Origin: a virus
Direction: 5' to 3' (one strand)
Virus record (IMG/VR): IMGVR_UViG_3300046007_008143
Span: 1-32,402 of that record
DNA: 32,402 nucleotides
Shown here: piece by piece, positions 5,524 through 25,531 of the stretch
Layout of the letters: each line of letters starts with the position of its first letter
How positions within the stretch are numbered: the stretch's first letter is position 1
Notes under the pieces: model-generated
Database searches by the model: none
Told to the model about the DNA's origin: nothing
The model's input: the letters and a program-made list of their open reading frames with translations, nothing else
Position numbers and translations under genes: made by a program

Positions 5524-6963
5524 CTAGACCGCGTATGGGTTGTAACGCTGCCGTCCACGGTCGTCCGCGTAGTCGTAGTCCCTAACCGGCAGCGGGTCTA
5601 GCTGGATCCACCCCGAGTCGCGCAAGACTCTTAGGGACTGAGACAGCGCGTCCACGTAGTCGTCGTGCCCGCCGGACTCGGGGAACGCGCAGACCTGGCG
5701 CAAGAATCGCTTGGCCCACTCGGCAAACTCTCCCTGCTTTTTTGTATCCTCCGGTATGTAGACCTTACCCTTGGCGATCAGCGGCGCCACGATGTTGATA
5801 CGCTGCACCTTATCCGCGCGGCCTGGGTTGTACGCGCGCACCGGCACACCCGCCCCCTGTAGCTCCTGAATTAGCGATATGCCGGCCGACTTATCCTCCA
5901 TGAGAATCAGGTCCGCCTTCCTCCCCTTGGCGAACGTATTGTCCGCGCCGTACACGACCTCCTTAAAGTCGGCGATTACCTTCTTTCGCAGCTCGGGGTA
6001 TGACAGGTGCGCGTCCCACGCGTCCAATAAAATAATGCACGTGCCCTTGTCCTGGTTCTCAAACACGCCCCACACCTCGCACGCCGTCGGGTCGTTGTGA
6101 GTCTTCTCTGAGGTGGCCGGGTCGTATGACGCGATCACGTACTCCAGGGTCGGCGTTTCCTTTTTGGACGGCCACATCTTAAACCACTTGCGCTTTATAA
6201 TGCCGGCATCTTCTGGGTTTAGGATCTCCCCGTAGATCTCCTGCTTTCCAAGGTCGGTGCCCTCGTACGTCTCCAGCTGCTTAAAAAACGTGGCCGATAG
6301 GTTTTGCTTGTTGTCATACGACGACGCGTTCACCACGTACACGTCCCCGCCGACCTTGCCCTCGTTTAGGTCGACGATTAACTCTTTTGGTTTTGGCGTG
6401 GTGGTAACGATCTGCTGCACGCGCTCGATGTCGTTGTGCCGCAAACGCAGCGTAAACTGCACCTGGTCATACGCGTCGTCGATGTACTCAAACGCGCAGA
6501 GCTCGTCGAACCAGGCGCCGTGAAACTGCTTGCCTCGGTACCGCTCTGGCTCGGAGCCCGGTATGCCCTGTATGAGCGAGCCGTTTATCAGCGTAATTTC
6601 AAAGAGCGACTTATTGTAGTCCTGGATTAGCGAGTGTGGGATCACGTTTAGAAGCCCCGAGTCGCCCTCAAAGCACGTCGCCCGGATGTCGTTTGAGGTC
6701 GGCGCCGTGACAAGCCAGCGCGTGCCAGGAAATTTCCACGCCCTGAGCCCGATCCAGTGACTCGCCGTGTACGTCTTACCCGATCCACGGCCGGCGAGCA
6801 TTAAAAACGTGTCGTAGTTGCCATCTTCCGGCTCTCTTTGGTGGGCGAGCGCCGAGATCTCCCACTTTACCTGCCACAAAGCCGCGTCTAGCTGCGGCTT
6901 TGGCCAGTGCTTGTTGTTTTTTGCAAAATCCGCGAGGATTTTTTCTTGTTTTTTGCTCAACAT
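5524..6963 (-). CDS. Terminase large subunit
   Basis: A 479-residue ATP-driven DNA packaging motor with nuclease. Visible motifs in order: Walker A LAGRGSGKT (about residue 56); Walker B with catalytic Glu in HGAWFDEL (about 150); coupling motif IVTTTPKP (about 190); and an RNase H-like nuclease with acidic residues in ASYDPATSEK (about 285), LILMEDKSAG (about 355) and GGHDDYVDALSQ (about 430). All catalytic positions look intact, and the length is normal for TerL. The ATG at 6963 overlaps the stop of the upstream Hint-domain frame (ATGTTGA), with GAGGG about 13 nt upstream. The protein itself contains no intein, although an intein-like gene ends exactly at its start. Confidence 0.95.
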   Translation of the reverse strand: MLSKKQEKILADFAKNNKHWPKPQLDAALWQVKWEISALAHQREPEDGNYDTFLMLAGRGSGKTYTASHWIGLRAWKFPGTRWLVTAPTSNDIRATCFEGDSGLLNVIPHSLIQDYNKSLFEITLINGSLIQGIPGSEPERYRGKQFHGAWFDELCAFEYIDDAYDQVQFTLRLRHNDIERVQQIVTTTPKPKELIVDLNEGKVGGDVYVVNASSYDNKQNLSATFFKQLETYEGTDLGKQEIYGEILNPEDAGIIKRKWFKMWPSKKETPTLEYVIASYDPATSEKTHNDPTACEVWGVFENQDKGTCIILLDAWDAHLSYPELRKKVIADFKEVVYGADNTFAKGRKADLILMEDKSAGISLIQELQGAGVPVRAYNPGRADKVQRINIVAPLIAKGKVYIPEDTKKQGEFAEWAKRFLRQVCAFPESGGHDDYVDALSQSLRVLRDSGWIQLDPLPVRDYDYADDRGRQRYNPYAV

Positions 6964-8084
6964 ACTGAGATAAATCCCTCACCGGCTAAAAATTGCTCGT
7001 TTGTGATGATGTGCGCGCACTGTCGGGGCTTAATTTTGTCAATCCCGACCAAATATCGCCTAGAAAACGCCGTATTTTTGTTTGTGTACGAAAAACTAAG
7101 CCTAAACCCCGGCTTGTCGTCCCTCTTTTCCATCTTTGTCTTGTACCCCAGCGACTCAACCAACATCTGTGCGCGCCTTGCCGTGCCCCAGTGGCTCCGT
7201 GTCACGCTAAATCTGTCCACGCCGGGAGATTTTTTAAAAAAACCCGAGTCGATCAGCCCCTCCAGCAGCTCGATCCTCTGCTCCGGCGCGCTTTCGATGT
7301 AGTAAAACGGCAGATCGTTTGGTATCAAGGCGTCGGCAAACAGAAACGAGTCCTTAACCGAGGGCCGAAACTCGATGTAGTTCCTCCCCTTGCCGAACAC
7401 CTTGCCCGCCACGACCAGGAAACCATGCTGCCTGAGCCGCTTGTTTATTTTCTGCACGTTTTCCTTGGCCACCACGTGCCTCTTAGTCCGGGTCATGGAC
7501 CCAAACCACGCGCCGAATACGTACGGCTGGACCGGCAGGTCTCGCCAGGGGTACGCAACGGGCGAGCAGTTCTGCACCGACCATATCTTGCGGTTGTTCT
7601 CAAACACCAGGGGCTTGTTGTGCAGGTCCTTCACACGCCGCATCCTAAGCGGGCTTCGGTTTGGCTTGGCGTACTTCTTGCCGCGGTTCTTTAGCCACTC
7701 CGATAGGTTGTCCCTGTATACCTTGTCCTGCAGCGGCAGGGTCATGTGCCTGTCCCCATCCAGGGACAGCCCATCGTCAAAGTGTACCCGAAAGCATGGG
7801 TCGGCCATGTAGGCCTGCACCGACTTGACCTCTTGGGGCGTCCCTAATTGCGTGAACACCAGGTCGCCCTCCCGCAGGTCAATCGCCCGCCTCCAGCCGT
7901 CAGGGGTTGGTACCGGTGTCTGTGCCGCTATGCCCATGCCGCCTGACTCGTTTTCTTTTCCGGTCGCCCTCCAACGCTCGACCCGACGCCTCGGGCGAGA
8001 GCCAGATCTCCTTGAAGTACCCGTCAAGCTTCTTTTTGTTTGTGTAGGCAAAAAAGATAAACCCATCCAGCCTGGCATCTCCAC
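6957..8084 (-). pseudogene. Degenerate Hint (intein-like) / LAGLIDADG protein
   Basis: Residues from about 50 onward form a Hint fold: block A-like GIAAQTPVPTPDGW, IDLREGDLVF, then block B-like LDGDRHMTL with its His. Two LAGLIDADG-like helices follow (YVFGAWFGSM, ELLEGLIDSGF), and a C-terminal block F-like end QFLAGEGFISVC. Key residues are missing. The position expected for the intein first residue is Gly, not Cys/Ser/Ala. The acidic residue of both LAGLIDADG motifs is replaced (Ser and Gly). The final His-Asn is absent because the frame stops there. So splicing and cleavage activity look lost. The first ~40 residues of this frame (MEMPGWMG...) are Arg/Ser-rich shadow sequence. The real N-terminus is probably the overlapping frame that starts at 8124, joined by a frameshift near 7975-7985. 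Confidence 0.65.
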
Positions 8085-8124
8085 GCCGGAAGTGTTTCCC
8101 CGTCGCCGGATTTACTCTTCGCAT
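7900..8124 (-). pseudogene. True N-terminus of the Hint gene, frameshifted after about 47 residues
   Basis: The ATG at 8124 has a strong GGAGG 6 nt upstream, unlike the ATG at 8084 of the other frame. The first ~47 residues look like real protein: MRRVNPATGKHFRRGDARL, then a hydrophobic stretch and KEIWLSPEAS. This N-P-A-T-G-K...RGD...W-L-S-P-E pattern resembles a short domain that opens many phage HNH-type proteins (from memory, not searched). After SPEAS the frame becomes a basic tail, while the other frame continues sensibly as ERWRATGKENESGG. Removing one base near the GTCGGGTCGAG run (about 7975-7985) would join them. This could be true decay, a programmed shift or a sequencing error. 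Confidence 0.6.
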
Positions 8125-8180: not shown

Positions 8181-8400
8181 TGTCAAGGGTGGCAAGGGTG
8201 GCAAGGGTCTAAGTGAGGTCGCTTCCAGGTTTTTATTTTTATTTTTTAAAAAATAAAAAATAAATGAGATAGACCCTTGCCACCCTTGCCACCCTTGACA
8301 CTTAGGACAAAAAAGTTAATAAAATCAAGCACTTAACACTTTCGTCTCTATACCGATTTCTTTATACTTGACCCTTGACAGACCCTTGACACCCTTGACA
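8181..8400. repeat. 220-bp iteron / inverted-repeat element, copy 1
   Basis: The left arm 8181-8211 (starts TGTCAAGGGTGGCAAGGG) and right arm 8270-8300 are perfect 31-nt reverse complements. They flank an AT-rich core with its own inverted symmetry (ATTTTTTAAAAAAT). Each arm is three 9-10-bp units of CCCTTGMCA. A 52-nt block, 8349-8400, then carries three further CCCTTGACA units (8372-8380, 8383-8391, 8392-8400). An element of identical length and plan lies at 15892-16111; the arms and the 52-nt block are the same, while the core is diverged. Iterons plus an AT-rich segment next to DnaA boxes fit an origin. The TTGACA ends could also act as -35 boxes facing outward. Function is inferred. Confidence 0.8.
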
Positions 8401-8421
8401 CTTTTGCATAAAAACAACAAG

Positions 8422-8441
8422 TTATCCACAGGTTATCCACA
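8422..8441 (+). promoter_or_regulatory. Two consensus DnaA boxes
   Basis: TTATCCACA occurs twice, at 8422-8430 and 8433-8441, separated by two bases. Both match the strict E. coli-type DnaA box. A one-mismatch copy (ATATCCACA) lies at 8960-8968. They sit 21 bp after the iterons of the 220-bp element, which supports host DnaA recruitment to a phage origin or a regulatory role. Activity is not shown by sequence alone. Confidence 0.65.
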
Positions 8442-8633
8442 GATTTGCATTCTGTCTCTATCCGGTATCTGTCCCTAATTAATCTGTCTCTATACCTCTT
8501 TATGTAGAAAAAAATAAAAAATTGGCGACTTAAAAAACTCGGGATCTGGCTGGGGCCCACCCCCGCCCCTCTCGACAGGACCCTAATTGGGGTGTCCCTA
8601 TTTAGCGAAGACCCCGTCATGTTGCACTGCACG

Positions 8634-8650: not shown

Positions 8651-8674
8651 TTGCAATTAGGCTCACAGCCCGAT

Positions 8675-8886
8675 GTGAGCGCTCACTAACATGTTGCAGT
8701 GCAGCAGCCCCCAGTGTGCGCTCACTAACATGTTGCGGTGCAGCACCCCCCAGTGTGCGCTCACTAACATGTTGCGGCGCGGCAAATAGGTTAGTGTGCG
8801 CTCACTAACATAGAGGCAGGCCGGCAAGTGTGCGCTCACTAACATGTTGCGGCGCGGCAAATAGGTCAGTGTGCGCACACTAACAT
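8675..8886. repeat. Six operator-like direct repeats (core GTGTGCGCTCACTAACAT)
   Basis: Units begin at 8675, 8714, 8753, 8794, 8828 and 8869 (spacings 39, 39, 41, 34, 41). Four share GTGTGCGCTCACTAACAT. The first unit has the perfect palindrome GTGAGCGCTCAC and the last has GTGTGCGCACAC, also a perfect palindrome; the middle four are imperfect. Units 3-4 and 5-6 form a 75-bp tandem duplication. The symmetric GCGC-centred core looks like a LacI/GalR-style operator. Arrays like this can be repressor, partition or replication-initiator sites. Spacing and unit content do not fit CRISPR. Confidence 0.75.
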
Positions 8887-9089
8887 AGAGGCATGCAAGA
8901 ATCGTGCCGAAGCAAGAAACGTGCCAGAATGCAGGCCCGCCAAAATGGCCTACAAGGGGATATCCACAGGGGCCGAATAGTAACGTAAGCAATTAAGAGG
9001 GAAGGGCACCATGGGCCCATGCGCACGCGACAAATAGGGGACGGGGTAAAGCGGATTTTTAGAATTGTGCCCAAAACGGACACGCCAAA

Positions 9090-24474: not shown

Positions 24475-25139
24475 CCGCGATAGCAATCGCCAGCGCCAGG
24501 GGCGTATGCCTGCCGGTGCTGCTGAAGTCTATTGAATGTTATGTCCCCAATGACGTAGACGTTTATCTATCGTCGAGCTTCGACGTTAAGATGCCGGACC
24601 GTCGGGTGGTGTGCATGCCGAACGAGGCGACCAATTTTGGGGACGCATACAACCGGGTGGTTAACGAGGCGTTCAAAGAGCACGACGTGGTGATCGTATC
24701 AAACGATGACGTGGTGCTGACGCCGACGAGCTACGACAAATTGATGGAAGACTACCGGGTGCTGTCCGAACAGAACCGGGTCGGCTGGGTGGCGGCAAAG
24801 TGCGACTACTCTAGGCCCAGCCAAAATATACGTTTTTACAAAAACCTGACGGGGCCTCGGTATCAGGAAGAGGATTGGATATACGAGTGCCCGGTTGTCG
24901 CCCCGATATTTGGGGTTATTAATAAATCGGCCTGGATGGACTACGACCCCATCGACTGGTTTAGTGACGACGTGCAGTGCTACGAGATCGTTAAGCGCGG
25001 CTTTAAGAATTTCGTGTCACGCTCGTACGTGCACCACGTGGGCAGCCAGACTGTAGGAGAAGATTTCTCGGCGTGTAGAGAAAAAGCGGCGCCTTGGTTA
25101 AAGGCGAATAGACCGGAATATTATAAACTTTGGTATTAA
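24471..25139 (+). CDS. Glycosyltransferase GT-A-like protein (222 aa)
   Basis: A GTG start overlaps the previous stop (GTGA). Pattern of a family-2-like GT-A fold: short N-terminal strand (IAIASARGVCLPVLLKSI), ATNFGDAYNRVVNEAF helix, and VVIVSNDDVVLTP, where N-D-D-V is the DxD-like metal/nucleotide-sugar site. Later VVAPIFGVINKSAW and the DWFSDDVQ acidic segment fit the acceptor region. It might glycosylate phage DNA, virion or host envelope components; the target is unknown. Confidence 0.75.
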   Translation: MTAIAIASARGVCLPVLLKSIECYVPNDVDVYLSSSFDVKMPDRRVVCMPNEATNFGDAYNRVVNEAFKEHDVVIVSNDDVVLTPTSYDKLMEDYRVLSEQNRVGWVAAKCDYSRPSQNIRFYKNLTGPRYQEEDWIYECPVVAPIFGVINKSAWMDYDPIDWFSDDVQCYEIVKRGFKNFVSRSYVHHVGSQTVGEDFSACREKAAPWLKANRPEYYKLWY

Positions 25140-25141
25140 AC

Positions 25142-25531
25142 ATGGGAAAAGTAAAACATATATTTAAACCCGAAATGTGCGAGCAGTTAATTGAGCTCGG
25201 TAAACAGGGCGCATCCCAGAAGATGATGTTTTCTGAGCTCGGCATCGGGCGCAACACGGCCGAGATGTGGAAAAAGAAGCACCCAGAGTTTGCGGAGGCC
25301 ATGGACGTCGCGCTCGTGCACAGCCAGGCCTTCTGGGAGCGTGAGATGCTGACCAACGTGGGCAACAAGGCATTTAACTCACGCGTCGCTGAAATAGCGT
25401 TGAGGGGCCAGTTCCCACAGGACTATAAGGACACGCGCGAGCAGAAGCTCGAGGTCAAGGCGGACGTGGTGGTGGACTTCTCGGGCGCCGTTAACGATTT
25501 AATCAAGCAGCTGAAGTCAGCAAAAGACTAA
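25142..25531 (+). CDS. Terminase small subunit-like protein (129 aa)
   Basis: ATG 25142 (a TTG 12 nt upstream is less likely). The N-terminal HTH-type pattern FKPEMCEQLIELGKQGASQK followed by LGIGRNTAEMWKKKHPEFAE, then a central helix (VALVHSQAFWEREMLTNVG) and LRGQFPQDYKDTREQK, is typical of phage small terminases, which bind the packaging site and stimulate TerL. It lies 18 kb from TerL and on the opposite strand, which is unusual. A simple regulator is the alternative. Confidence 0.7.
   Translation: MGKVKHIFKPEMCEQLIELGKQGASQKMMFSELGIGRNTAEMWKKKHPEFAEAMDVALVHSQAFWEREMLTNVGNKAFNSRVAEIALRGQFPQDYKDTREQKLEVKADVVVDFSGAVNDLIKQLKSAKD

Follow-up and report, generated by a model that had tools for sequence, protein, structure and literature searches.

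A free-standing, intein-derived Hint gene fixed upstream of the large terminase gene in a phage clade, and its possible domestication for DNA packaging

Organization of the terL locus

The window, that is, the whole stretch of DNA analysed here, is a 32.4-kb virus record with the following genes on its late strand: a portal gene, a gene encoding a 431-aa protein, the large terminase gene terL, a Hint gene and a small gene of 74 codons. TerL (5524–6963, minus strand) retains complete ATPase and nuclease domains (Pfam Terminase_6N, E 5e-19; Terminase_6C, E 1e-9). Directly upstream lies a free-standing Hint–LAGLIDADG gene (6957–7937, minus strand) whose 326-aa product (P0005) was defined by translation, with a start codon that is backed by relatives. 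The initial annotation, made from the sequence alone, had correctly recognized a Hint/LAGLIDADG gene directly upstream of terL but had extended it over 6957–8124; the true coding sequence runs from 7937 to 6957, while 8124 is the start of the 74-aa gene. The TGA stop codon of the Hint gene (6957–6959) and the ATG start codon of terL (6961–6963) share the heptamer ATGTTGA (6957–6963, minus strand), as had been read from the letters, and an overlap of the same kind is kept through most of the clade, in nearly all relatives.

The Hint gene is the first or second gene of the late operon. The small gene (7900–8124, minus strand) overlaps it in another frame, and its similarity to a family of HNH homing endonucleases is confined to the N-terminal part. 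This HNH-family N-terminal part comes and goes upstream of the Hint gene, being present in 66–67 of 109 loci, and may itself be a retained DNA-binding fragment. A GroES-like co-chaperonin gene is also found on the late strand (521–997), and co-chaperonins are likewise annotated near the portal region in two sister phages, MW202545 and Caulobacter phage RW.

Upstream of the late operon, the window contains a perfect 31-nt inverted repeat (8181–8300; strand not applicable), the arms of which (8181–8211 and 8270–8300) are 58 nt apart and consist of three 9-bp iterons each. This element could be a cos/pac site, an operator or a replication origin. Farther on, between the late-strand and early-strand genes, lie DnaA-box-like TTATCCACA repeats together with 39-bp direct repeats that contain palindromes of the GTGAGCGCTCAC type (8414–8443 and 8666–8896), and this region could also serve as a replication origin.

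Fold and intein ancestry of the Hint protein

Pfam matches of the window protein are weak (Hint_2, E 0.006; Hom_end, E 0.05), and its best match in BFVD, only 26% identical, is named a homing endonuclease. The Hint fold proposed in the initial annotation is nevertheless clear from structural comparison: the AlphaFold2 model, built with 37 relatives, has a pLDDT of 91.7 and predicts a complete intein, composed of a Hint domain and a two-repeat LAGLIDADG domain. Foldseek matched the model to PI-SceI at 4.5e-14, and VIA-align superposed residues 2–326 on residues 1–453 of the PI-SceI intein with Z scores of 22–23.4 and about 300 aligned residues, as compared with a Z score of 18.9 for the MchDnaB-1 intein. 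According to the PI-SceI alignment, residue 2 takes the place of intein residue 1, and the stop codon takes the place of the terminal Asn. In profile searches, the PHROG TerL profile that includes inteins matched the window protein at 1e-14, TerL profiles of this kind were matched by all 22 family members scanned (best E 1e-23), and the family profile led to structures of class 3 DnaB inteins. The N-terminal part of the Hint domain (residues 1–135; 7533–7937, minus strand) matched the class 3 DnaB intein 6bs8 (E 3e-8), the endonuclease-like part (residues 136–290; 7068–7532, minus strand) was delimited by fold and alignment, and the C-terminal part of the Hint domain (residues 291–326; 6960–7067, minus strand), with which the protein terminates, stops short of His-Asn and is not followed by a zinc finger. 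The two-repeat fold is partly eroded, though still predicted with confidence (pLDDT 89), in locus L293 (2623–3501); in this sublineage, which includes L297 (1646–2530), the first LAGLIDADG repeat is shorter by approximately 35 residues that have been lost, indicating that a complete DNA-binding saddle is not required in every member.

The loss of both LAGLIDADG acids, already pointed out for the window, was confirmed on the minus strand as Ser147 (7497–7499) and Gly232 (7242–7244), and it extends to the family. Among 93 distinct proteins, the first acid is present in none and the second in four (L011, L012, L236 and L238), the latter position being occupied by Lys or Arg in 70. Likewise, the window protein ends, as had been noted, with the FLAGEGFIS motif and without His-Asn (FLAGEGFISVC, then the stop codon), and a terminal His-Asn was found in none of the 93, nor a terminal Asn in any family member examined. 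The second residue is Ala in 86 of these proteins and Gly in 7. The initial annotation was thus right that no nucleophile stands at the first position, but this absence is not a sign of decay. Of eight related phage inteins compared, seven have a residue other than Cys at position 1, and the same seven bear the marks of class 3 inteins, namely Trp B:12, Cys F:4 and a Thr before the final His/Arg-Asn; since a non-Cys position 1 is common to class 3 phage inteins, the missing first nucleophile is ancestral. The WCT triplet (Trp B:12, Cys F:4, Thr G:5) is the mark of this class, which was described by Kelley et al. 2016 (PMC5050341). In the window protein its positions are occupied by Leu67, Cys307 (7017–7019, minus strand) and Val325; the block F Cys is kept in 66 of the 93 proteins, whereas Trp and Thr have been lost from the family.

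The Hint proteins therefore resemble the class 3 inteins of phage TerL and DnaB proteins (e.g. that of Brevibacterium phage Rousseau DnaB) in whole-length sequence and fold, in the non-Cys first residue and, for most members, in the block F Cys, and their closest active relatives are inteins located in TerL and DnaB P-loops. They differ in being free-standing, without exteins, and, as judged from sequence, in the loss of two WCT residues (Trp and Thr), of the final His-Asn pair and of the LAGLIDADG acids, both of which are Asp in all eight related phage inteins. In all relatives examined, the gene has its own start and stop codons and is not an in-frame insertion flanked by exteins. On the basis of these residues, the Hint protein is predicted to be dead for both splicing and DNA cutting.

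Distribution among related phages

Where TerL identity is 70% or more and the contig extends far enough upstream, the Hint gene lies directly upstream of 140 terL genes and near one more, and none is without it; as some contigs are near-duplicates, only non-identical terL genes were counted. The single non-adjacent case is L244, in which a full-length HNH gene (about 1990–2600) sits between the Hint gene and terL. In contrast, none of the 56 non-identical terL genes of the sister group (about 50–58% identical) is accompanied by the Hint gene, and the two groups are separate in the TerL tree. Loci chosen by the presence of Hint are not independent evidence of fixation, but those selected via TerL only (80 loci and a deeper TerL query) are, and they showed the same distribution. 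The gene is single-copy in 17 of 17 long clade contigs (reported as two pieces in one of them), and in the relatives it begins at equivalent ATG, GTG or TTG codons, with many intact frames, which contradicts the view of the window gene as a singular dead copy. All clade members are metagenomic. When genome contigs were scanned with TerL, the only matches were on two contigs from a single beta-proteobacterial MAG, each of which carries the Hint gene, and a scan with the divergent Hint protein of L237 returned nothing beyond L237 itself. The presence of a Hint/LAGLIDADG gene upstream of terL is far beyond chance, and the suggestion of a free-standing Hint protein with another role, which had been offered as one of two possibilities, is stronger than could be known from the window alone because the gene is fixed across the whole clade.

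An intein-bearing terL was never met in the Hint clade, nor in the sister clades, with the possible exception of a broken sister-clade terL in L118 (774–2716), the two parts of which are separated by approximately 500 additional bases and a disrupted frame. A frameshift fusion of Hint and TerL was considered and rejected, as no slippery site was seen by eye at the junctions inspected.

The Hint gene in the terS slot of sister clades

An unrelated gene does occupy the junction upstream of terL in relatives outside the clade, where it is terS, but in none inside. In the sister clades, terL is complete and TerS is encoded within about 0.75 kb upstream of it, often in an overlapping arrangement (in 77 of 80 loci, and throughout L324–L344). 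In the Hint clade, a different TerS family is encoded in the early module; in the window, this gene (25130–25531, plus strand; phrog_309 TerS, E 2e-13) is unlinked from terL, and homologues were found in 14 of 17 long contigs, the three misses being fragments of 35–47 kb. When the window protein was used as the query, TerS of the phrog_309 type was detected in 0 of 10 sister records. The window terS lies on the strand opposite to terL and has an endonuclease VII gene and replication genes as its neighbours. The Hint gene has thus taken the terS slot, yet the phages that carry it are not without TerS, and a strict replacement of TerS by the Hint protein is ruled out by the TerS of another family in the window and in most long relatives. 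The folds of TerS and Hint are unrelated, and no TerS profile was found among the matches of the Hint protein.

Selection on the Hint family

The median dN/dS, obtained by simple counting (Nei–Gojobori type) over 118 pairs that are not independent, was 0.15 for Hint as compared with 0.05 for TerL. Constraint is equal in the Hint and endonuclease parts, with values of about 0.2 in both (0.21 for the N-terminal Hint part), and values of 0.15–0.2 indicate purifying selection on the family. The Hint protein evolves approximately three times faster than TerL, and its distances follow those of TerL closely (Mantel r 0.80, reached by 0 of 999 permutations). Together, the dN/dS values and the tracking of distances are consistent with the vertical descent of a functional protein. 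The 93 distinct proteins carry a mean net charge of +16, +12 of which is located in the endonuclease part; this basic charge, combined with the lost acids, would suit nucleic-acid binding without cutting.

The domestication of the Hint protein is strongly supported by these observations, and the protein is very probably functional. Should it be domesticated, a role with TerL or in packaging is slightly favoured over other roles.

A possible terminase cofactor and its alternatives

The best reading, to which we assign a probability of approximately 0.5, is that the Hint protein is a domesticated, non-catalytic intein that acts as a terminase cofactor. A class 3 LAGLIDADG intein of the type residing in phage TerL and DnaB P-loops became a stand-alone gene, which settled ahead of terL, after the late-operon start, where sister phages have terS. 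The intein gained its own start codon, with its end now lying about one residue before the position of the terminal Asn, and the splicing and cutting residues were lost while the whole fold was kept under purifying selection. The overlapping stop and start codons may allow Hint and TerL to be co-produced, although the overlap could reflect only a compact genome layout, and the Hint protein may bind TerL and/or the packaging start region and thereby aid the initiation of packaging beside the unlinked TerS. The fact that TerS is still encoded argues against a cofactor, since the recognition subunit is not missing. The faster evolution of the Hint protein relative to TerL, the shortened LAGLIDADG repeat in one sublineage and the lack of extra synonymous conservation at the terL P-loop also count against it. 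In a more specific and more tentative version, a mobile intein was recruited to the packaging motor, either as a dedicated subunit or as a cofactor for DNA recognition, and took over the ancestral terS slot while TerS was replaced by an unlinked gene; this would be an intein devoid of splicing and homing that is kept for a non-catalytic role.

The main rival to a terminase cofactor is a DNA-binding regulator comparable to WhiA, which would bind the iteron repeat upstream of the late operon and control the transcription of its own gene and terL. The place of the gene at or near the head of that operon and the basic character of its product would fit such a regulator, as would the precedent of WhiA (DUF199), cited in PMC7282813 as a LAGLIDADG-derived transcription regulator kept after cutting was lost. 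A fast-changing repeat is situated just upstream: similar but diverged inverted repeats, with the geometry kept and the iteron sequence varying, occur in 47 of 93 Hint-clade loci and in 0 of 48 others within the stretch searched, outside which the operon start of the loci without Hint may fall. However, the repeat is absent from half of the Hint loci in that stretch, an arm made up of three short direct repeats differs from the typical target of a LAGLIDADG protein, and iteron divergence follows TerL (partial r 0.36) about as well as Hint (0.39; n=14). The repeat could equally have one of the other functions mentioned above. Regulation by the Hint protein is considered rather unlikely.

Slightly less probable still is an immunity function, whereby the Hint protein would occupy homing sites in terL and keep out related active inteins or homing endonucleases. 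The residence of its closest active relatives in TerL and DnaB P-loops and the lack of intein-bearing terL genes in the clade would agree with such protection. Yet no intein was seen in the sister clades either, with the possible exception noted above, and one sublineage has lost part of the DNA-binding domain. Moreover, a hidden binding site in the terL P-loop was sought and rejected, as no extra synonymous conservation was found there, only the first 20 codons of terL being slightly elevated (z about 2.5).

It is improbable that the gene codes for a free-standing homing endonuclease that has an unusual active site and is maintained by its own spread. Free-standing intein-derived endonucleases do exist (HO and WHO; PMC7282813), and the locus attracts HNH homing genes. 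However, the first acid is missing throughout the family, and whereas homing genes spread patchily, the Hint gene sits at a single position in every clade member, is absent outside the clade and diverges in step with TerL. Finally, although the Hint gene ends where an intein would be expected to end, adjoining the TerL start, the proposal that it is a decaying relic of an intein that formerly joined an upstream domain to TerL is refuted as a general account and very improbable overall, as decay is excluded by purifying selection and by frames that are intact for 93 distinct proteins, no fusion of an upstream domain, intein and TerL was found among about 200 loci, the small upstream gene is inconstant, and sister phages have a complete terL with terS in this slot.

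Comparison with known systems and implications

The nearest working analogies for the Hint family are HO/WHO and WhiA. The yeast HO and WHO endonucleases are intein-derived stand-alone genes, of which HO is domesticated (PMC7282813); the Hint family resembles them in lacking exteins and the C-terminal block G, but HO and WHO are DNA-cutting enzymes with a zinc finger, whereas the Hint proteins have neither the nuclease acids nor a zinc finger and are encoded in a phage packaging operon. With WhiA, they share a LAGLIDADG origin and retention after the loss of cutting, a loss that is predicted for the Hint proteins. WhiA, for its part, is a cellular regulator with an HTH domain and no Hint domain. 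HNH proteins have been described as parts of phage packaging machines (e.g. PMC5304195), and these are also endonuclease-family proteins tied to the terminase, but they are active nucleases of another fold. A description of a phage family such as the present one was not found in the open-access literature. Automatic annotation is likely to label Hint genes as homing endonucleases, a name that the absent acids do not support.

Inteins are commonly regarded as selfish elements whose fate is splicing, homing or decay. In the phages analysed here, a whole intein fold without splicing or cutting residues is fixed, single-copy and under purifying selection in a broad clade, where its gene overlaps that of the packaging motor. 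This would be a clear case of intein domestication without catalysis, and it raises the testable question of how packaging motors acquire and swap their accessory and recognition subunits.
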